Assembly (NCBI GenBank): GCA_030706385.1
Contig: JAUZOQ010000025.1
Coordinates: 1-39,677 of the forward strand
Reading direction: 5' to 3'
Length of the DNA stretch: 39,677 bases
DNA from: Bacteroidota bacterium
Lineage (GTDB): Bacteria > Bacteroidota > Ignavibacteria > Palsa-1295
This document shows, one piece after another, positions 1,181-36,490 of the stretch. Position 1 is the stretch's first letter, and each line of letters opens with the position of its first letter. Both the position numbers and the translations under genes were made by a program. The notes beneath the pieces were generated by a model that was not told the DNA's origin, did no database searches, and saw nothing but the letters and a program-made list of their open reading frames with translations.

Positions 1181-3901
1181 TTACTGGCCGATCATTAATT
1201 TTCCGGAAATGACCTTCCCCATAGCCGAGAACCGGTAAATATACATGCCGGAAAGTATCTTGCTGCTGACCGGGAAAACAGCTACGTAAATTCCCGATGC
1301 CTCCTCGTCATCGTGAATGACTTTCCCAATGGAATTGCCAAGGACATCATAGATCTCCAGATCGACAGGCGAACTTCCACTCAGCCCGTAGACGAATCGA
1401 ACGGCATTACCGGCGAGGATAGGGTTCGGCTTTGGTGGCAGCAACGCGGCTTGACTGCCCCTATCGAGTTGAGCACTTATGGCTGCATACTCCGCACTCC
1501 CTTTAGAAAGCGAGGATTCATATCCGCTGCCGGCAACAGCTGCCGGAAGTTGACCGCAGCCTGTCACCGTTGCAGAATCGGTCCCTGCCTCCTTGCTTCG
1601 CAGATGAACTTTCGTAACGAAGTTACCAACTGCTTTCGGAGTGAATGTAAACATGAGGGCAACGTCTGATTCCGGGTTGATAATAAAAGGAGGAACAGGA
1701 ATGCCGTTATATCTAAAATTGACGGTATCATCTACCCAAATGCTATCGATCGTTATCGGAAACGCAGTCGGATTCTCGGCGATCGTCAAGGTATCGGTTT
1801 TGGATTTTCCGGTATCGATGCACTTAAAGTCATTATCACTGAGAGTAAAATAGAGTTCTCCACCGCTGCCCCTCACGACAATCGATTGAGATGCACAAGC
1901 GTAGCGAATGGTAAGCGTATCACTTTCGAATTGTGTGGTGCCGGGCGTGAAACAGATCCGTATCCTCATCGAATCACCAACCTTAATCGTAGAATCGGTG
2001 CCCATACTATCTATTGCAAAGCCGTGTGCGCCGGATCGGAGCGAAATATCCTGGAAGGAGAACGGGATTTTCCCTGTATTGCGGATCGTCGCGTAAAGAC
2101 ACGATGGAGCACCTACGATCACGCCTCCGAAATCAAGCGGCGATGGAGCGATCAACGCAGTTTGCGGAATGTAGGTAGTTGTGACAGTCGTCTTATTTCC
2201 GGCATAATCAAACGCCTCTACACTGAGGTAGGCTGCTTTCGTGCTGTCCATTACATGCATTCTGTAGAATGTGCTGTCCGAAGGAATGCCTTCAGCGTAG
2301 TTCGGATCCGGAATGTAGGACATATTACTGATCGAATCTATTTTCACCGAAGATATACGTGAAGAAGGAGGATCGATCGTTCTATCGCTGATCGTAACCA
2401 ATCCATCGAAACAACTTCCGGAAATAATTGCAGCAGGCGGAATCGTATCAGGATCATTGAGTGTCGTAATTCCAAGATTCCCATTCCAGGAGTAAGCATC
2501 ATTACTTCCATATCCGTACATATAGACTCCAATACCGGAATCGCTTCGTACTTCATGCTTTCCCGGTGACACCGATCGGATAATAAAAGCAGTATGAGTT
2601 GAACCGGGAAGAGGCTCTTGAGTGCTCCCGCGATAACTGGAAATTGGTTGGCCGTCGAACGTAGTCGAGCCTTTTACAGCAGTGTTAACAATGACGTTCA
2701 CGAAATTTTGATAGCCACCGTTAATAAAACTCGGAACAGTGAAGAACGAGGCGTTTCCATATTGCTCTACGGGATTCATGACGACCATCGACGGACCAGC
2801 TGAGCCCAAATTATTAGGCCCGGCCATATTCGGCCAAGTCTGGCTATTGAGATATTGCACGAGCAAGAACGGAGCATCGCTTGTCCACTGAGATGAATCT
2901 GAGATATCGTTATGAAAGTAATACTCGTACTTCTTGTGGAGAACGCAATGAACATCTCCATTACGGTTGATCGTCTGTCCTGCTTTTGTTCCGATGACGA
3001 GATAGGTATCGCCTCCGATGCGACGAGTGAACGGTATCGTGTAATATGTTTTCCCCCATGTTCTGACGGGAGGTATCATCTCACAAATGTGCGAGCAGTA
3101 ATTGAATTCCGCAGGGATATTTGCGCATTCCGATGCTCCTATGACTCCAACGGGATGTGAGCTGGTGATAACGGAGCCGGTAAGATCGAAATTATCGATA
3201 CCGGCTGCAATAACCGCCTTATACTGAATGCACTCGCCTCGATTGAGTACTTGAGTAAACGGTACTGCTACCTTGTGAACAATGGCACTCGCATCGCTGC
3301 CACCACGAATATCAGAGTTCGGCGTAATTGTGCAAACGGTATTATCCTGATTGGCAACAAGGCAAAATTCGGAAGGATAATCATAGGTAAATCCGGCAGA
3401 TCCTTCATAGAGCGATTCAAAGGAGGCGACGACGTACTCCTGACCCCATCCCGATGTAGGAATGACGGAGAACCCGTCGGTTGAACCAGGATTGCGGGAG
3501 AGGAGGTATACGCTCAAATCTGCGTCGGCGGACCAAACATGGATTCCTTTTTCTTCGACAGCGTTGCTTGTTGTTACTTCCCAAGCTAACGGAACAAAGA
3601 AATTCAGGACTTGCCCTGCCGACAGAGGATATTTTGAAGTCGAGCCTCCCATGACTTGGATACTGACTGTCGTAGCTTTTTCACTAATTACAAAGAGCTC
3701 GTAATATTTTCCGCCCTGTGATTGAAAATTTTGGGGCATCGCAAACCAGTACTCTCGACCCAATCCCGTTGCCGTACTGCCTCGTTCATACGTAGTGACC
3801 GATTCGATCTTGGACTGAGCAAAGACATGCGAAACAAAGGTAGCCTGAATGAATACAGTTGTCAGAAGAGCAGTGACGCGAAAAGACTTACATTTAGTCA
3901 T
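1181..3901 (-). CDS. T9SS-secreted surface protein: IgGFc-binding domain, two choice-of-anchor/Hydin-like Ig domains, Por sorting tail
   Basis: The protein has 906 residues. A signal peptide of about 29 residues ends in VSHVFAQ. Residues ~45-460 form the IgGFc-binding N-terminal-like region (GLGREYWFAMPQN, IHVWSADADLSVYLLSR, YPSEFCLVANQDNTVCTITP, PVGVIGASECANIP). A linker with a TTVTTTYIPQTAL segment leads to two tandem ASPM/SPD-2/Hydin-like Ig domains (~585-800; LDFGGVIVGAPSC and FTFTPKAVGNF signatures). The last ~80 residues match a type A type IX secretion sorting domain: PPKPNPI, then LEIYDVLGNSIGKV, then SGMYIYRFS. It is therefore probably moved through the outer membrane by T9SS and attached to or released from the cell surface. 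The IgGFc name comes from a eukaryotic mucin-like protein; binding of IgG by this protein is not implied. A paralogue follows downstream. Confidence 0.9.
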   Translation of the reverse strand: MTKCKSFRVTALLTTVFIQATFVSHVFAQSKIESVTTYERGSTATGLGREYWFAMPQNFQSQGGKYYELFVISEKATTVSIQVMGGSTSKYPLSAGQVLNFFVPLAWEVTTSNAVEEKGIHVWSADADLSVYLLSRNPGSTDGFSVIPTSGWGQEYVVASFESLYEGSAGFTYDYPSEFCLVANQDNTVCTITPNSDIRGGSDASAIVHKVAVPFTQVLNRGECIQYKAVIAAGIDNFDLTGSVITSSHPVGVIGASECANIPAEFNYCSHICEMIPPVRTWGKTYYTIPFTRRIGGDTYLVIGTKAGQTINRNGDVHCVLHKKYEYYFHNDISDSSQWTSDAPFLLVQYLNSQTWPNMAGPNNLGSAGPSMVVMNPVEQYGNASFFTVPSFINGGYQNFVNVIVNTAVKGSTTFDGQPISSYRGSTQEPLPGSTHTAFIIRSVSPGKHEVRSDSGIGVYMYGYGSNDAYSWNGNLGITTLNDPDTIPPAAIISGSCFDGLVTISDRTIDPPSSRISSVKIDSISNMSYIPDPNYAEGIPSDSTFYRMHVMDSTKAAYLSVEAFDYAGNKTTVTTTYIPQTALIAPSPLDFGGVIVGAPSCLYATIRNTGKIPFSFQDISLRSGAHGFAIDSMGTDSTIKVGDSMRIRICFTPGTTQFESDTLTIRYACASQSIVVRGSGGELYFTLSDNDFKCIDTGKSKTDTLTIAENPTAFPITIDSIWVDDTVNFRYNGIPVPPFIINPESDVALMFTFTPKAVGNFVTKVHLRSKEAGTDSATVTGCGQLPAAVAGSGYESSLSKGSAEYAAISAQLDRGSQAALLPPKPNPILAGNAVRFVYGLSGSSPVDLEIYDVLGNSIGKVIHDDEEASGIYVAVFPVSSKILSGMYIYRFSAMGKVISGKLMIGQ

Positions 3902-25929: not shown

Positions 25930-27696
25930 TTAAAACCGTTGGTAGCATTTCACCTGCACATCGAACTCGGCAGGTTTGGGAATACCTAATCCGAAATCCA
26001 GACCGAAGGTCAGGTCGACTCCGAAATTCGAACCGGCTCCGCCGGGTGTAGTCATGATTCCGATGGCCGGCGAAATAAGCGCTGCACTGTGAATACCACC
26101 GACGGTCGAAGGAGATTCGGCCGAATAAATACCGTAATAGCCAAGACGAACCACAGGCTGTATTATCCCATTGAATATCGAAAGCGGCGACCACCCAAGC
26201 TGCAAACCAAGTGATTTCGGCGAACTGAAGATCTGCGAAAAATTCGACGGGTTGTCGTAAGCGAGATACGGTGCGCTGTTCGAATAGAGAAGGCCGTAGG
26301 AAAGATCGAGGGTCAGCGAAGGAACATTCGATTCCACTCCGACAAAGAGATTCAATCCGGAGCTATGCCCAAACCCAGCACCTACACGGTAACGCAGCCC
26401 TGCAATGACATTGCCTTGCGTTGCATCGACCTTTGTTTTTAATTCTTCCTTCTCTCGTGAAACCTGAGTAAGCGTTGCTTCCAGCCGATCGGTCTTTACC
26501 TTTTCGACATTATAGGCCATGTTCAACTCTTGCAAAGCTTTTTGCGCGCTTTCCTTTTTACCGCCTACTTCAAGAGTATCGGCATTGGCGATCGAAACAC
26601 CGTTGCCAACAAGCATCGGCGATTTTTTCTCAAAACTTTTTGTCTCGTCGAACAGTACTTTGCCGGATCCAACCTCTTTTGCCGTGATGCGGTATTGGTA
26701 AGTGCCATTCGGATACGGCTTCATATCATGCTCGGCAAGGTAATCGGCCGGACGCATGACGGAGTCGATAAGCGTTAGCGGATGCGCCGGATCGACAACG
26801 GAAAGAAGATCGACCTTCACTGCCGAAGTTCTGGCAACCGTATAGGGAATCGAAAGGCGCGACGATTGCATGGAGAGATCGGCCTTGCCCAATGCATACT
26901 TCAAGCGTTCGCCATTAAGAATGATATCTTCCTTAAAATGACGAGCGAAATCTTCATAGAAATTTAGGACTTCGTTATCGTCGATCTTGAATATATAGGT
27001 CTGCCTGTCAGGAGGAGTGTTCTCCAGACGCAGGCGGATCGGATCACCGGGCCTGGCAGTAAATTCTTTTGCGTAGCGTTCGAACTTCTTTTCGCTCTCG
27101 CTTCGATTCGATTCGATGGCGCGCTCAATGATCACATAATAATGGATCGAATCGCTCTTTGCATCTTTCGCTTTCGGAAGCGGAAGGATTCCCAGCGATA
27201 CAGTATAGGATGCTTCATCGCCGGAAAGAACTTTGGAGAGATTGCTCACCAGTGGCAAGGCCAGAGGCGTGCGTGCAGACCCAACAAAATACATTACCGA
27301 TTGCGGAGAAGTCTTGACCGTATCGGTCCTCTCGCGCCCTTCGGCAGAGAATGACATGTACCGCGGTTCGAGATGGAAACTTGCTTCGTGCAAGACGATC
27401 TCACCGGTCGGTGCATCGGTGCGAACGTAATTGGCTTCAAGTTTCAGGAGTTCGGGATCGGGCGCGGCGCTATACTTCGCACGTTCGGTTTCAAGCCGCT
27501 CGTGCATGAGATCATCGATGCTTTTGATATACTCCTGCGAGCGTTGAGAGCGCACGGGAGTATCGTATTTCTGAGGCGAGTCCTGATTCTGAGCAAAAAG
27601 GCTTCCGGCACAAACGATCATGACAAAAGCCACAAGCATAGTAGCTATGCTTGCGGCTGTTATCAGTTGTTTTGTTGTCTCGGGTTCTTTTTTCAC
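25930..27696 (-). CDS. Predicted outer-membrane protein of unknown function (third gene of the sigma cassette)
   Basis: 588 residues from a GTG start. The signal sequence is long (basic/polar start, then MLVAFVMIVCAGSLFAQ). Residues ~40-350 are a soluble region with beta strands (FHLEPRYMSFSAEG, TYQYRITAKEVGSGKVLFDE). Residues ~385-435 form a likely coiled coil (ALQELNMAYNVEKVKTDRLE, LTQVSREKEELKTKVD). The last ~150 residues look like an eight- or ten-stranded barrel (YRVGAGFGHSSGLNLFVGVE, LTFGLDFGLGI) and end in Phe, as outer-membrane barrels often do. I do not recognise the family. It lies 75 bp after the anti-sigma gene on the same strand, so it may be a target or signal source for that regulator. 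Confidence 0.75.
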   Translation of the reverse strand: MKKEPETTKQLITAASIATMLVAFVMIVCAGSLFAQNQDSPQKYDTPVRSQRSQEYIKSIDDLMHERLETERAKYSAAPDPELLKLEANYVRTDAPTGEIVLHEASFHLEPRYMSFSAEGRERTDTVKTSPQSVMYFVGSARTPLALPLVSNLSKVLSGDEASYTVSLGILPLPKAKDAKSDSIHYYVIIERAIESNRSESEKKFERYAKEFTARPGDPIRLRLENTPPDRQTYIFKIDDNEVLNFYEDFARHFKEDIILNGERLKYALGKADLSMQSSRLSIPYTVARTSAVKVDLLSVVDPAHPLTLIDSVMRPADYLAEHDMKPYPNGTYQYRITAKEVGSGKVLFDETKSFEKKSPMLVGNGVSIANADTLEVGGKKESAQKALQELNMAYNVEKVKTDRLEATLTQVSREKEELKTKVDATQGNVIAGLRYRVGAGFGHSSGLNLFVGVESNVPSLTLDLSYGLLYSNSAPYLAYDNPSNFSQIFSSPKSLGLQLGWSPLSIFNGIIQPVVRLGYYGIYSAESPSTVGGIHSAALISPAIGIMTTPGGAGSNFGVDLTFGLDFGLGIPKPAEFDVQVKCYQRF

Positions 27697-27771
27697 TTTT
27701 CACCAACTCTTTCGCTTCTATCCTCTAACAGAATGGAAGAGGAGTAAGAAAGAGAAAACCAAAATCAGAGC

Positions 27772-28518
27772 TTACATTCTATCTTGTTGAGTCACTTCAA
27801 CAACGGGTGTAGCTTTGATGAGCTTCACATACCGGTGTGAGATCATGATATCTGCCGGATCCGCTTTCGTCTGTTCTGCCTGAGGCGTTTCGGCCTGGTT
27901 CATTGAGTTTGTTGCCAGGTCAGAAGAGTGCTCGCTCTTAACTACCTCTGCATTCTTCTTGATCGGAAGGCTGGATGAAGCAGCCGGGTGGGTAACAGGA
28001 GTAGAAGCTACTGCAAGTGGAGCCTGCTGCGGCGCGATCAGCTCTTGGGCCGGCGGAGCTGTTTGCTCCGGCGTTACCGAGCGATGCGTAGGAACAGGGA
28101 CTTGCGTGATCTGTTCGTTCTTTCCTGCAAAATCAAACCACAGGAAGGCAAGTAATGCGGCAAATGCAAATCCGATCGATGCGCGCTTCGCCCACATGAA
28201 CTTAATGCTTCGCTGAGCCGGAATGCTGCGCACGGGCGCGGCGTTCGGAGCAGGAGCTGCGGTGCGAACTGCTTTGCGTGAAGTTGCAAGCGAATCGGCA
28301 AGCATCTTTTTCGTACGGTCGTCAACTTTCTGGCTGAGCATAAAGCGCGAATCGGCACGGCTCGACGCCATGGCCTTTCCGAGTGCAGCATATTCAGCGG
28401 TGGCGCGCACGAGCGTTGGCTCGGCACGAAGCTCTTCTTTGAACTCCGGACTTACATGAAGTTCACCGTCTAAATAAGCGACGATGTGCTCATCGGTAAT
28501 TCGGGGGTATTGTTTCAT
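27772..28518 (-). CDS. Putative membrane anti-sigma factor
   Basis: 248 residues, starting 3 bp after the sigma-factor stop. The N-terminus (ITDEHIVAYLDGELHVSPEF) has the AYLDGEL motif common to anti-sigma domains. No HxxxCxxC zinc motif is present. One membrane segment lies at ~113-130 (IGFAFAALLAFLWFDFAG), so the N-terminal 110 residues face the cytoplasm and a ~115-residue Pro/Gln/Ala-rich tail faces the periplasm. By position and topology it should bind and restrain the ECF sigma factor and release it on an envelope signal. The tail does not match a sensor domain that I recognise. Confidence 0.8.
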   Translation of the reverse strand: MKQYPRITDEHIVAYLDGELHVSPEFKEELRAEPTLVRATAEYAALGKAMASSRADSRFMLSQKVDDRTKKMLADSLATSRKAVRTAAPAPNAAPVRSIPAQRSIKFMWAKRASIGFAFAALLAFLWFDFAGKNEQITQVPVPTHRSVTPEQTAPPAQELIAPQQAPLAVASTPVTHPAASSSLPIKKNAEVVKSEHSSDLATNSMNQAETPQAEQTKADPADIMISHRYVKLIKATPVVEVTQQDRM

Positions 28519-28521
28519 ATA

Positions 28522-29469
28522 CTATATCTCTTCGTCTATATCTGCTATGGTTTCCTTCGCAGAGTACTCCTTCCCCAATACGGGGCTTAAAACTTTTCTG
28601 AGCCTTTTCTTTGCTCTGAACACTCGAATGCGAATGGTCGAGAGCGATGTTCCGGTCAACTTGCCGATCTCTTCGTAGGTCAACCCTTCATATTCGCTGA
28701 GCATCAATGCTTCGCGATAGGTCTCCGGCAGTTCGGCTATTGCTGCAAGCAAGAGATTCGTCTGTTCCTTCTGCGTCAGGATCTCAAGCGGATCGTCCGA
28801 TCGCTTGACATTGCTTTGCCCGTTCAGCGCATCATCTTCGGTCAGATTGTCGGGATCGACCATCGAGCCGGAAGAGAGATTATTTCGCAATCCGCGCTTT
28901 TTCGAACTCAGGCAGGTATTACGGGTCACCGTAAAGATCCATGCCCGGAATTCGCCGGAAACAAACGTGTGACGGTACTGGGAAACCCGTAGAAAAACTT
29001 CCTGAAACGTATCCTCTACCAATTCTTCGGGAAGCCCTGCCGATAGCAGTACCTTCGCACAGTACGAATAGACACTGGACTTATATCTCTCATAGAGAAT
29101 AAAAAACGCAGCATCTTCACCTTTTTGGTAGCGGAAAAAACACTCTTCGTCGTTTTCCGCAGTTTGGCCCTTCTTATCAATGAACTGATCCGAAAAAGAT
29201 CTTGCAACTCCTTGCCGCTTCTTATATTGCCCATTGGCAAAGAAACGAGACTTCGGAACTTCCGCTATTTCACGAAGTTCTGCCCCGATGATATCATCCG
29301 TTTCGGGAAGCTCACCGGAGAAAGCCTGCTCAGATGTAGGAAAGTCTTCGATCGGCATGAACGCATTTTGAGACCCCTCAAATAAGTCCCTTGTTTGATC
29401 AACGCTTGCCCCCCTCCTTTCCTCATCCTTCAGAGGCTTGCTTTCTTCGTTATAAGAACTTTGCGACAC
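28522..29469 (-). CDS. ECF-subfamily RNA polymerase sigma factor with long N-terminal extension
   Basis: 315 residues from a GTG start. Sigma region 2 is at ~107-192 (FRYQKGEDAAFFILYERYKS, EELVEDTFQEVFLRVSQYR, FRAWIFTVTRNTCLSSKKR) and region 4 at ~238-295 (AIAELPETYREALMLSEYEG, LTYEEIGKLTGTSLSTIRIR). ECF factors usually begin close to region 2; here about 105 acidic, low-complexity residues precede it. An ATG at 29358 would shorten the protein by 37 residues. A purine-rich run (about 29411-29425) that looks like a strong ribosome site lies inside the extension but has no suitably spaced in-frame ATG. It is first in the cassette with the anti-sigma and OMP genes. Confidence 0.92.
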   Translation of the reverse strand: MSQSSYNEESKPLKDEERRGASVDQTRDLFEGSQNAFMPIEDFPTSEQAFSGELPETDDIIGAELREIAEVPKSRFFANGQYKKRQGVARSFSDQFIDKKGQTAENDEECFFRYQKGEDAAFFILYERYKSSVYSYCAKVLLSAGLPEELVEDTFQEVFLRVSQYRHTFVSGEFRAWIFTVTRNTCLSSKKRGLRNNLSSGSMVDPDNLTEDDALNGQSNVKRSDDPLEILTQKEQTNLLLAAIAELPETYREALMLSEYEGLTYEEIGKLTGTSLSTIRIRVFRAKKRLRKVLSPVLGKEYSAKETIADIDEEI

Positions 29470-29514
29470 AGGAATAATTACACCTCTAAGCTAAAGAATC
29501 AGAAAAAAAACTCT

Positions 29515-29533: not shown

Positions 29534-29559
29534 CAGATTGACACAAGTAAATTCAGGCG

Positions 29560-29588
29560 TGTGGAAAAGTGGATAAGAATGGGGATAA
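29560..29588 (-). other. Cluster of three DnaA-box-like 9-mers
   Basis: On the minus strand, reading upstream to downstream, TTATCCCCA (29580-29588), TTATCCACT (29568-29576) and TTTTCCACA (29560-29568) occur within 29 bp in the same direction. The last fits the relaxed TTWTNCACA consensus and the other two differ from TTATCCACA by one base. They lie in an AT-rich 194-bp intergenic region between the sigma and asparaginase genes. No replication genes are near. Chance or a DnaA-regulated promoter are as likely as an origin. Confidence 0.3.
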
Positions 29589-32377: not shown

Positions 32378-35300
32378 ATGGGCAAGAAAACCGCCGCCTC
32401 ACTGCCTCCTCCCCAGATAAGTGAGACCGTTGCTTCAACCAATAGCAGCACACCGAATCCCCGCAGAAAGAATCCGACAAAACCCAAGCAAAAAGGGCCT
32501 CAAGAATCTATGGCCAAATCCGCAAGCGACGAATCTCAGTTTGCGATTGAGACGCTCCGGAAATCAGAGTCGACCCTTCGTGCATTGATCGAAAATGCAA
32601 AAGATGCATTCATACTATTTAGCCGCGAGGGTAAAGTCCTGGCCTTTAATCAGGTTGCAGTAAACCTCTACAGAAAGCAAAACAAAAGGGAGATCACCGA
32701 AGGCAGCAGTATTTACGATCTCGTAATTCCCTCTCGCCATGAAGACACCAGGAAGATTTTCGATCGAGTACTTACCGGACAAACATTCGAACGAATCGTA
32801 AATCATATTTCCGATGACGGAAAGAAATATTCCTTCAAACGATTTTTCAATCCGGTCACTTCGGAGGATGGATCTGTCTATGCTATTGCAAATACGATCA
32901 GCGATATCACTGCCGAAGTAGAAGCAGCAGAAGCGATCCGCAATTCCGAAGCGAATCTTCGTGCACTCTTCGATAATGCCCAACATGGTTTTGCATTGAT
33001 CGATCGATCTGCAAAGATCCTCGCATTCAACAAGATGTTCGATGACATTTTTTCCTTAGCATCAGCAAAGAGACCAATGGTAGGCAGTTCGCTCTTCGAT
33101 CTCTTACGGGAAGAACACATTCCGATCATGAGAGAGACTGTTGCGCAAGTTCTAACGGGAAAAGTATTCGACCGCACGACCCCTCTTCAAAAACCCGATG
33201 GAAGTATTTTTTGGGCTCGCGGTTCGTATAGTCCGGTCAAGGATAACTCCGGTAATATCATCGGTGTGTGCATCGGTACCACGGACGTTACCAAGGAAAT
33301 TGGTGCACAAGCTGCTATCAGGGAATCCGAGGCAAATCTTCGCGCGCTCTTCGATAATACGAAAGAGGGCTTCGTGCTGATCGATCTAAATTCGACGATC
33401 CTCGCATTCAATCATGCTGCCGGTTACCTCTATGAGGAGGTCATTGGCAAAACCCTCACTGTCGGAAAAGGCGTCTCCGAAGTTCTTGGCCGCCAATTAG
33501 GAGAATACATGCGTACGGCATTCGATACGGTTCTGGCAGGCGGTTCGATCGAACGAACATCGAAACAGACTGCGACTGACGGAAAAACCTATTGGCTGCG
33601 CGGCAATTACAATGCTGTGCGATCTTCCGAAGGCGCGATCATCGGCATCTGCATCGGGATCTCCGATATTAGTGCCGAAGTCGAAGCCGGTGCTTATGTA
33701 TCGCAGCTTGCAGCCATCGTCGAATCCAGCAACGATGCGATTATCGGAAAGACACTCGAGGGAATAGTCACGAGTTGGAATTTCGGCGCCGAGAAGATAT
33801 TCGGCTATACTGCGAAGGAAATGCTCGGAAGATCGATCACGACTTTGATCCCTCGCGAACGGCTTGAGGAAGAGCAGCAGATCCTCGAAAAAATTTCTCG
33901 CGGTGAAAAGATCGAGCAGTTCACTACTACGCGCATCACCAGATCAGGAGAGCAACTTATCGTTTCAGTTACGATCTCGCCGATCCGGAACCGTGATGGC
34001 GTTATCATCGGAGCCTCGAAGATCGCCAGAGATATTACCGAGCAGAACCGTCTGAATAACAAGATCCGTGAAAGTGAGAAGCGATTCCGTACGGTAGCTG
34101 ATACTGCTCCGATTCTCATTTGGATGAGTGATGAAAGCGATCACGTTGATTTTCTGAACACGGGATGGGTCGATTTCACCGGAAGATCGATGAAAGAACT
34201 GCTGAGTGATTGGAATTCCTGCATTCATCCGGATGATCGGCCAGGCCGGAACGCTGTTCGCGCAGAGGCGTATTCCGAGAAGAAAGAGTTCAGCTTCGAG
34301 TATCGCATTCGCAGACATGATGGTGAGTACCGATGGGTTGCCGGAAATGGCCGGCCGCGTTTCTCCTTCGATGGAACATTCCTTGGATTTATTGGGACGT
34401 GTACCGATATCACCGAGCGCAAAATGGCACGCGAAGAACTGGAGAAAGAGGTCAACGAGCGCACCTTCGCACTTCGGACTGCCAACCATGAACTTCGCGA
34501 GCAGAAAGAATTCATGGAAACAGTTCTGGATTCCTCGATCGATCAGATCTGCGTCTATGACAAGGCGGGCCGCTTCATTACTGCCAACCGGAAATTCCGG
34601 GAAGAATCCGATAAGGATCTTTCCGAACTGACCGGAAAAACATTTCTCGAAGTCTATCCCGAACTGGAGCATTCCGTCATCTATCAGGGCCTGAAGAAAG
34701 CGCTTGCGGGCGAACCCTCCAGTGCTCCGTGGAGATCGCCGCAGAGCGGCCGCAACTATACGATATCCTTCATTACTCCGGAGCGAAATAATGAGAGCTA
34801 TGGCGTAATGGTCAGTGCACATGACATTACCGATATCCTCCAAGCTGCAGATCAGATACAGCAATTCAACACCGTTTTAGAAGCCAAAAATACCGTACTG
34901 CAACAGACGAACGCAGAACTGCAGCAGCAAAAAGAGTTTATCGAAACGATGCTCGATGCTTCAATCGATCAGATCGTCGTCTGTGATAAAGACTTGCGTC
35001 TTCTGGCATGGAACAAGAAATGCGAAGAACATTTTGGCTTGAAGAAAGAAGACGTCATCGGGAAAACCTATGAAGAGTTATTCCCGGATTTCGTCGGCGC
35101 TCAGGGCTATAGCGATATCCGTGAAGTCCTCAGGACCGGTGAGATCCGGTACCGAAGCCCAAGGAAATCTCCACTGTCAGACCGCATTTTCGAAGCATTT
35201 ATTGTTCCGCTCAAGCATAACAAGGAAGTCTACGCAACGCTGACGATCTCTCACGATGTGACCGAGATCATATCCATTTCGGAAAAACTCCGACAGACAA

Positions 35301-36490
35301 ACGAAATGCTCGAACGCCAGAATGACGAGCTTCTGCGCCAGAACGACCTGATCCAAACGATGATCGATTCCTCCGTCGATTTCATCAGCGTCTATGATAA
35401 GGATCTCCGGCTCATTTCACTCAACAAGAGAGCTCTCGATTCGCTGAACGTGAAAAAGGAGCAGATCATCGGAAAAACATTTCCGGAGATCAACCGGAGC
35501 ACGGATGCAGCCGAAGAGACGATGAAGGATATTCGCAAAGCGCTTGCCGGAGAATATGTGCACCGAGTCAATGGGCGAACCGAAGAGACATTCGGAAGAG
35601 ATTATGAGATTTTCTTTATTCCTCTGGTCCACAATAATGAAGTCTACGCAGCTCTTATTATGGCTCATGATATTACCGATATCATGAACATCTCAGAAAA
35701 ACTACGTAAGGCCAATGCACTCCTTGGCGAGAAGAACATGGAGCTGGAGCGGAGCAATACGGAGCTCGAACGCTTCGCCTACGCAGCTTCTCATGATCTG
35801 CAAGAGCCGCTTCGAAAGATCCGGATGTTCGCCGGAAGGCTTCGAGAGCATGGCGGATCTATCGTCGATGAGGTCTCGCAAAATTACTTTGCGAAGATCG
35901 ATCACTCCTCCGATCGCATGAGCAATCTTATTAAGGATATCCTGAATTACTCAAGGCTCAACAGCGCTGCCGACAAATTCGAACTGACCGATCTTAATGA
36001 AGTTGTTTCCCAGGCTCTTGCAGATTTCGATCTTGTCATTGAAGAAAAGAAGGCGAAGATCCGGATCGACAAACTTCCGGAGATCGAATGTTTGCAGATC
36101 CAGCTCGTTCAGCTATTCCATAACCTCTTCAGCAACAGCCTGAAGTTTTCGCGGCCCGGAGTCCATCCCGAAATCCATGTTTCTTCGCGAACACTAGTTC
36201 CTACTGAAATCGCCGAGCGTAAGCTCGATCGAACGAATTCGTATTGCGAGATCATTCTTACCGATAACGGAATCGGATTCGATCAGGAATTTGCCGAGAA
36301 GATCTTTGTCATCTTCCAACGGCTGAACGAACGCAACAAGTACGAAGGCACCGGAATCGGCTTGGCACTCTGCCGCAAGATCGCCGAAAAGCATAAAGGG
36401 ATTATCTATGCTCTCTCGACGGAAGGCAAGGGATCGGAGTTCCATATTATTCTTCCCTTCAAGCAAATGCCAGAGAAGGATAACAATTAG
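32378..36490 (+). CDS. Soluble hybrid-free sensor histidine kinase with eight PAS domains
   Basis: 1370 residues with no membrane segment or signal peptide, so the sensor is cytoplasmic. After a Pro/Lys-rich start come PAS1 (~60-185), PAS2 (~187-312), PAS3 (~314-438), PAS4 (~441-560), PAS5 (~565-690, PAS_3-like with FLGFIGTCTDITERK), then PAS6 (~716-820), PAS7 (~858-965) and PAS8 (~996-1103), joined by coiled-coil linkers. The kinase core has the H-box AASHDLQEPLRKI (His1139), N-box FHNLFSNSLKFSRP, G1 DNGIGFDQ and G2 GTGIGLALCRKIAEKHKG. No receiver domain is present and no response-regulator gene is adjacent, so the partner is elsewhere. No heme- or flavin-binding signature is obvious. Its stop overlaps that of the convergent lipoprotein gene by 4 bp. 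Confidence 0.95.
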   Translation: MGKKTAASLPPPQISETVASTNSSTPNPRRKNPTKPKQKGPQESMAKSASDESQFAIETLRKSESTLRALIENAKDAFILFSREGKVLAFNQVAVNLYRKQNKREITEGSSIYDLVIPSRHEDTRKIFDRVLTGQTFERIVNHISDDGKKYSFKRFFNPVTSEDGSVYAIANTISDITAEVEAAEAIRNSEANLRALFDNAQHGFALIDRSAKILAFNKMFDDIFSLASAKRPMVGSSLFDLLREEHIPIMRETVAQVLTGKVFDRTTPLQKPDGSIFWARGSYSPVKDNSGNIIGVCIGTTDVTKEIGAQAAIRESEANLRALFDNTKEGFVLIDLNSTILAFNHAAGYLYEEVIGKTLTVGKGVSEVLGRQLGEYMRTAFDTVLAGGSIERTSKQTATDGKTYWLRGNYNAVRSSEGAIIGICIGISDISAEVEAGAYVSQLAAIVESSNDAIIGKTLEGIVTSWNFGAEKIFGYTAKEMLGRSITTLIPRERLEEEQQILEKISRGEKIEQFTTTRITRSGEQLIVSVTISPIRNRDGVIIGASKIARDITEQNRLNNKIRESEKRFRTVADTAPILIWMSDESDHVDFLNTGWVDFTGRSMKELLSDWNSCIHPDDRPGRNAVRAEAYSEKKEFSFEYRIRRHDGEYRWVAGNGRPRFSFDGTFLGFIGTCTDITERKMAREELEKEVNERTFALRTANHELREQKEFMETVLDSSIDQICVYDKAGRFITANRKFREESDKDLSELTGKTFLEVYPELEHSVIYQGLKKALAGEPSSAPWRSPQSGRNYTISFITPERNNESYGVMVSAHDITDILQAADQIQQFNTVLEAKNTVLQQTNAELQQQKEFIETMLDASIDQIVVCDKDLRLLAWNKKCEEHFGLKKEDVIGKTYEELFPDFVGAQGYSDIREVLRTGEIRYRSPRKSPLSDRIFEAFIVPLKHNKEVYATLTISHDVTEIISISEKLRQTNEMLERQNDELLRQNDLIQTMIDSSVDFISVYDKDLRLISLNKRALDSLNVKKEQIIGKTFPEINRSTDAAEETMKDIRKALAGEYVHRVNGRTEETFGRDYEIFFIPLVHNNEVYAALIMAHDITDIMNISEKLRKANALLGEKNMELERSNTELERFAYAASHDLQEPLRKIRMFAGRLREHGGSIVDEVSQNYFAKIDHSSDRMSNLIKDILNYSRLNSAADKFELTDLNEVVSQALADFDLVIEEKKAKIRIDKLPEIECLQIQLVQLFHNLFSNSLKFSRPGVHPEIHVSSRTLVPTEIAERKLDRTNSYCEIILTDNGIGFDQEFAEKIFVIFQRLNERNKYEGTGIGLALCRKIAEKHKGIIYALSTEGKGSEFHIILPFKQMPEKDNN

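Follow-up and report, generated by a model that had tools for sequence, protein, structure and literature searches.

We analysed three adjacent genes of the window, a stretch of 39,677 nucleotides (contig JAUZOQ010000025.1 of assembly GCA_030706385.1) from a family of uncultured bacteria that belongs to the Bacteroidota in the wide sense. On the minus strand they encode, in this order, an extracytoplasmic function (ECF) sigma factor, an anti-sigma factor with one membrane span and a signal-peptide outer-membrane protein (OMP). The trio is a real conserved module, and its existence, like that of the sigma/anti-sigma pair within it, is near certain. That it works by OMP-gated release of the sigma factor, which would then drive a regulon of exported proteins, is a proposal to which we give slightly better than an even chance.

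A conserved sigma, anti-sigma and OMP trio

The OMP was present, as a single copy, in 12 of the 13 genomes of the family; the only genome without it is 67% complete. All 12 keep the order sigma, anti-sigma, OMP on the same strand, where neighbouring genes overlap or stand apart by no more than 81 nt, and the flanks vary among the genomes, upstream most of all. Since the order is kept and the flanking genes are variable, the trio is a unit. No unlinked copy of the OMP was found among these 12 genomes, and a search that totalled 293 genomes gave no full-length relative from other families of the class. When 84,980 species were scanned by pattern, nine contigs came up, labelled as Ignavibacteriae, Ignavibacteria, Bacteroidetes or Candidatus Kapaibacterium metagenome-assembled genomes, and all nine matched contigs of the trio family in length. 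An earlier sequence-only reading of the window had placed the three genes at the right coordinates and proposed that relatives be searched for the same order, which they indeed retain.

The sigma factor has both sigma-70 regions expected of an ECF member, region 2 (Pfam Sigma70_r2, PF04542, 4.6e-10) and region 4 (Sigma70_r4_2, PF08281, 5.3e-18), and matches the ECF model TIGR02937 (6.6e-26), in each case above the cut-off. Its open reading frame (ORF) is open from a GTG at 29469, and the same reading had remarked on a long N-terminus. In a comparison of two congeneric genomes, differences by codon position were 7/10/10 in codons 1-37, with no third-position bias, against 11/9/33 in codons 38-105 and 25/6/77 in the remaining codons, both with such bias. 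In addition, the relative G002 has no start codon within the stretch corresponding to codons 1-37, and a promoter-like element straddles the annotated start. These three observations suggest that the true start is likely the ATG at 29358, and that the first 37 codons are probably untranslated. The long N-terminus is thus partly a start-codon artefact; about 70 poorly conserved residues (identity 0.24) remain ahead of region 2. Further upstream of the sigma gene, positions 29545-29580 contain TTATCC(CC), TTATCCAC and TTTTCCACA stretches that resemble DnaA boxes and are nearly identical in a congeneric genome.

The anti-sigma factor had no Pfam match at E 0.1, hence no FecR and no RseA domain by Pfam. 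It has a single hydrophobic span and lacks any cysteine, so that it cannot carry a zinc motif, in agreement with what had been noticed from the letters; the HxxxCxxC motif of the Zinc anti-sigma (ZAS) family is absent. Mean pairwise identity was 0.55 in the sigma-binding domain, fell to 0.17 in the periplasmic tether and rose again to 0.53 in the last 28 residues, where S227, R229, K232 and D246 are invariant. A conserved tail behind a variable tether is likely a docking peptide. We infer that its partner is the OMP encoded next door, the periplasmic domains of which are its most conserved part (identity 0.57-0.59); the cytoplasmic domain would likewise bind the sigma factor.

The OMP has no sequence relative in Pfam, NCBIfam or PDB, as its description as unrecognised implied. 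Across the class its matches were weak and confined to residues ~265-355, a stretch resembling the immunoglobulin-like domains of FlgD and of type IX secretion system (T9SS) tails, which we took as domain-level similarity. An AlphaFold model built with 11 relatives (mean pLDDT 69.7, pTM 0.42) showed a coiled-coil helix at residues 384-427 and eight strands at 434-587, mostly with pLDDT of 70-90, bearing out the coiled coil and C-terminal barrel called in the sequence-only reading. Foldseek aligned the strands with the eight-strand barrel of OprF (4rlc; TM-score 0.75 by target, root-mean-square deviation 3.9). Only matches to small barrels were used, as whole-protein matches to large porins (deviation ~30 or more) are meaningless. 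Outer-membrane barrels commonly end in phenylalanine, and F is the final residue of the OMP in all 12 genomes. With a signal-like N-terminus, eight modelled strands and a terminal aromatic residue, the OMP is predicted to carry a C-terminal barrel.

These features bear on whether the trio is a FecIR/TonB-type system with the OMP as a degenerate receptor. The plan is indeed the same, with an ECF sigma factor, a one-span anti-sigma factor and an OMP in one cell-surface pathway, as in FecI/FecR/FecA (PMC9249621). However, the anti-sigma factor has no FecR domain by Pfam, the score against TIGR02985 was 82 bits for a cut-off of 126, and the OMP has eight strands and neither a TonB-dependent receptor nor a plug domain. 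We rejected this explanation, which is contradicted by these tests and which we regard as extremely improbable. The absence of a TonB receptor had been recognised from the letters.

Fused relatives of the anti-sigma factor and comparison with known systems

A profile search with the anti-sigma factor found the same N-terminal domain in other ORFs, mostly of 400-500 amino acids. Those we read out came from the window's genome and from further families of the class; they directly follow ECF sigma genes and consist of an anti-sigma domain, a transmembrane span, a disordered tether and a C-terminal barrel. One of them was modelled (mean pLDDT 54.3, the barrel mostly 70-90) as a helical domain, a transmembrane span at 105-125, a disordered part at 126-268 and eight strands at 271-461, the barrel matching OmpA-type barrels. 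Profile comparison of the window's anti-sigma factor with the N-terminal half of these proteins (98.2%, E 5.6e-14, 128 columns including the transmembrane span) indicates, at the level of sequence, that its N-terminus and span are homologous to those of proteins of the same genome. Fused anti-sigma factors of 388-472 amino acids were noted at L101 (G000:C68), L102 (G000:C118), L134 (G000:C88), L147 (G000:C83), L106 and L107, and several of their genes precede a lipoprotein gene. At L144 (G000:C81, ~873-1868), a 331-amino-acid anti-sigma-like protein adjoining an ECF sigma gene has, by eye, YCF48/BNR propeller-like repeats in its periplasmic part in place of a barrel.

This layout is that of Dma (dual membrane-spanning anti-sigma), which with the ECF21 sigma factor Das forms a system of Bacteroides thetaiotaomicron; Dma comprises an anti-sigma domain, a transmembrane span, a disordered tether and a C-terminal eight-strand barrel, and its own operon is upregulated (PMC13088901). 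The Dma family of Bacteroides is the closest known system to the trio. In both, the anti-sigma gene adjoins an ECF sigma gene (Dma partners belong to group ECF21), and in both a cytoplasmic domain, one span and a long disordered tether have an eight-strand outer-membrane barrel at the far end. The likeness of the N-terminal half was established through the Dma-like proteins of the window's genome, the Bacteroides proteins being likened by layout. The window's anti-sigma factor, however, ends after 248 residues in its conserved 28-residue tail, and the barrel is encoded by the next gene, as part of a distinct secreted protein that also has additional periplasmic domains and a coiled coil. The system works like Dma but, because the single-chain barrel is missing, is not a member of that family. 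A simple split of a Dma protein was also considered and rejected, as the anti-sigma half is homologous and the barrel half is not detectably so. The sequence-only reading had proposed an envelope route outside the TonB-FecIR systems; it was right that the trio is not of that type, but signalling from the outer membrane to an ECF sigma factor was already known from the fused Dma. Of the two outcomes that it had named as refuting, an unlinked OMP and a model with no barrel, neither was observed. Its overall interpretation is partly supported.

Separate OMPs occur at further loci. At C107 (L136) and C124 (L135), a sigma gene is followed by a short anti-sigma factor (213 and 216 amino acids, respectively) and an OMP with two OmpA-domain matches. 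Each of the 12 genomes had two short anti-sigma matches, one of each type; the C107 type has the sigma gene before it and the OMP gene after it in 12/12 genomes, and the C124 type has the same order in the window's genome and in the three relatives whose flanks were checked. The presence of these loci across the genomes shows that separate OMPs are coupled to ECF sigma factors repeatedly in the trio family, alongside the fused form.

A different explanation is that the OMP is a mere target: the sigma factor would maintain a structural OMP, the anti-sigma factor would sense another cue, such as membrane state or a protease, and the OMP would take no part in signalling. The OMP is indeed co-transcribed, lying in the operon of the sigma factor, and the best small match of its barrel, which is also the closest solved structure, is OprF. 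In Pseudomonas aeruginosa the ECF sigma factor SigX is linked to the oprF gene (PMC3832394, PMC7641640) and was first known for oprF transcription (PMC3832394). In the trio, by contrast, the anti-sigma gene lies between sigma and OMP genes in 12/12 genomes, and the OMP has no OmpA domain by Pfam, whereas OprF is a peptidoglycan-binding protein of the OmpA type. Moreover, a mere target would leave the conserved periplasmic tail of the anti-sigma factor without the partner that it needs. It would not account for a linked OMP that was never lost or unlinked, for fusion of the same anti-sigma half to a barrel at other loci of the window's genome, or for the OMPs at the other sigma/short-anti-sigma loci. 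We therefore consider the target-only explanation unlikely, though well short of negligible.

Two further systems share parts of the plan. E. coli RpoE/RseA (PMC8103513) also combines a membrane anti-sigma factor with an outer-membrane-protein signal, but the window's operon includes a dedicated OMP, and its anti-sigma factor has no RseA domain. In Porphyromonas gingivalis, PorXY-SigP (PMC4800418, PMC7712824) ties an ECF sigma factor to type IX secretion, the cargo of which appears in the trio's candidate regulon. SigP, however, has a two-component system as its partner and controls the secretion machinery, whereas the trio has a linked anti-sigma factor and OMP and a candidate regulon mostly of cargo and lipoproteins.

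A promoter-like element at the trio and before exported-protein genes

Upstream of the sigma gene, 332-558 nt from region 2, lies a 30-bp promoter-like element that aligned without gaps in 12/12 genomes. It consists of GTGTAATT, 12 bases, and a ten-base CRAAGTTMTT-like half. Allowing one mismatch, 22 matches were found in the 13 genomes, of which 12 lay at the trio, and the reversed pattern gave none; the extra matches gave GTGTAACTTTT as a common variant. A broadened pattern had 71 matches in 12 family genomes, compared to 4 for the reversed control, and a stricter one had 46 matches in 11/11 family genomes (control 0), 7 of which were the trio itself. Outside the family, the stricter pattern matched 11 times in 138 other genomes of the class, where its control matched 7 times. 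By these pattern counts the element is confined to the trio-bearing family.

ORFs typically begin 5-60 nt past the element, mostly with lipoprotein or ordinary signal sequences. An N-terminal hydrophobic segment was found in 46/56 of them and in 49/132 of the background, to which the same rule was applied (p = 1.1e-8); a strict signal-peptide rule, which misses obvious signal peptides, gave 31/59 and 24/134 (p = 2e-6). The proteins include T9SS type A cargo, MbnH/MauG-like di-heme proteins and a ResA-like lipoprotein. The candidate regulon was drawn from the pattern search alone; its members in the window's genome are given in Table 1. The sites in C48 and C126 have counterparts in the congeneric genome, ahead of the corresponding genes (C203 and C29, respectively). 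The window's 3.5-Mb genome has at least 150 matches to sorting tails of the T9SS. In the window itself, positions 1181-3901 encode a protein that has an IgGFc-binding domain and, at its C-terminus, a T9SS sorting domain.

The sigma factor of the trio may read its own promoter-like element. As judged from sequence, it is also the probable reader of the exported-gene elements, since these share the -10-like half and are restricted to the family, and since the genome's other ECF genes are not preceded by the element. It is conceivable that the trio signals but that another sigma factor of the family reads these elements, leaving the trio a small regulon, namely itself. ECF paralogues are many, and the 12 sigma promoters all have T at position 7 of the element, where most other matches have C. 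Yet the spacing and the -10-like half are common to both types of element, which are found only in the trio-bearing family, and the other ECF genes lack the element, save for weak two-mismatch matches before two of them. We thus think it rather improbable that a different sigma factor is responsible. Upstream of the ECF genes L113, L114 and L116 (G000:C88, C124 and C107), TGTAAC- or TGTCAC-like -35 sequences followed by GTGTCTTT were seen by eye, which suggests that the paralogous ECF systems have a separate -10 class.

Table 1. Coordinates of the trio, its parts, the promoter-like element and the candidate regulon members of the window's genome
Feature	Position	Strand	Description or basis
OMP	25930-27696	minus	588 amino acids; signal sequence, beta-rich periplasmic domains 84-357, coiled coil 384-427, predicted eight-strand barrel 434-587, final F; AlphaFold model m95200412fc43, Foldseek, 12 genomes
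OMP C-terminal barrel region (residues 428-588)	25933-26415	minus	eight predicted strands, identity 0.50
OMP periplasmic beta domains (residues 84-357)	26626-27447	minus	identity 0.57-0.59, most conserved part
Anti-sigma factor	27772-28518	minus	248 amino acids
Anti-sigma parts		minus	cytoplasmic domain 8-63, transmembrane span ~109-130, variable tether 131-219, conserved tail 221-248; profile homology, regional identity, gene order
Anti-sigma periplasmic tail, candidate OMP-docking peptide (residues 221-248)	27775-27858	minus	identity, invariant residues
ECF sigma factor, ORF	28522-29469	minus	315 amino acids
ECF sigma factor, likely true coding region	28522-29358	minus	Pfam regions 2 and 4, TIGR02937, codon-position differences, no start in G002
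Promoter-like element GTGTAATTATTCCTGTGTCGCAAAGTTCTT	29454-29483	minus	same spacing in 12/12 relatives, variants before exported-protein genes
-35-like GTGTAATT	29483-29476	minus	part of promoter-like element
-10-like CAAAGTTCTT	29463-29454	minus	part of promoter-like element
Regulon candidate	C48:1853		BNR-type secreted protein
Regulon candidate	C100:28047		Kelch-type T9SS cargo
Regulon candidate	C126:19101		133-amino-acid secreted protein ahead of a murC-like gene
Regulon candidate	C24:24767		MbnH-like lipoprotein
Regulon candidate	C132:12687		ResA-like lipoprotein
Regulon candidate	C68:26802		phosphotransferase-like, not exported

Elsewhere in the window, positions 32378-36490 encode a 1370-amino-acid histidine kinase with about eight PAS domains.

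Proposed mechanism and its meaning

We propose that the three genes form a single signalling operon acting across both membranes. At the inner membrane, the ECF sigma factor would be kept by the cytoplasmic domain of the anti-sigma factor, whose single helix and long disordered tether would reach into the periplasm. There the conserved tail would dock onto the OMP, at its large periplasmic part, while the eight-strand barrel of this protein would fix it in the outer membrane. The OMP would then act in trans as the fused barrel does in Dma and report on the condition of the outer membrane or on the export of surface proteins. Upon a change of that state, through a conformational change or proteolysis, the anti-sigma factor would release the sigma factor. 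Once free, this could drive its own operon, a positive feedback yielding more OMP, and also the exported-protein regulon with its many lipoproteins and type IX secretion cargo. In this scheme the OMP would be the sensor, and the signal would travel inward from the outer membrane.

Several points weigh against the proposal. Contact between the tail and the OMP is conjectural, and the OMP barrel showed no homology to the Dma-like barrels at the profile level. The structure models rest on 12 sequences for the OMP and 9 for the Dma-like protein, and the hydrophobic-segment test is crude. Finally, the genome has 22 sigma-like matches, and another of these sigma factors could read the elements with C at position 7.

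As described, Dma anti-sigma factors formed a class with a unique structure. A counterpart made of two proteins, the anti-sigma half of which is homologous to Dma-like proteins, suggests a route, fusion or fission, by which such proteins could originate, and having the tail and the OMP on separate proteins makes the sensing step easier to study. We tentatively suggest, while holding it somewhat doubtful, that coupling of ECF sigma factors to the outer membrane is modular, occurring within one genome both in cis, in fused proteins, and in trans, where three loci employ two kinds of OMP between them, and that the window's OMP gates a regulon of T9SS cargo and lipoproteins that extends across the secretome. 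The trio would also be a candidate for the means by which the expression of so many proteins with T9SS-tail matches is coordinated with the condition of the outer membrane.

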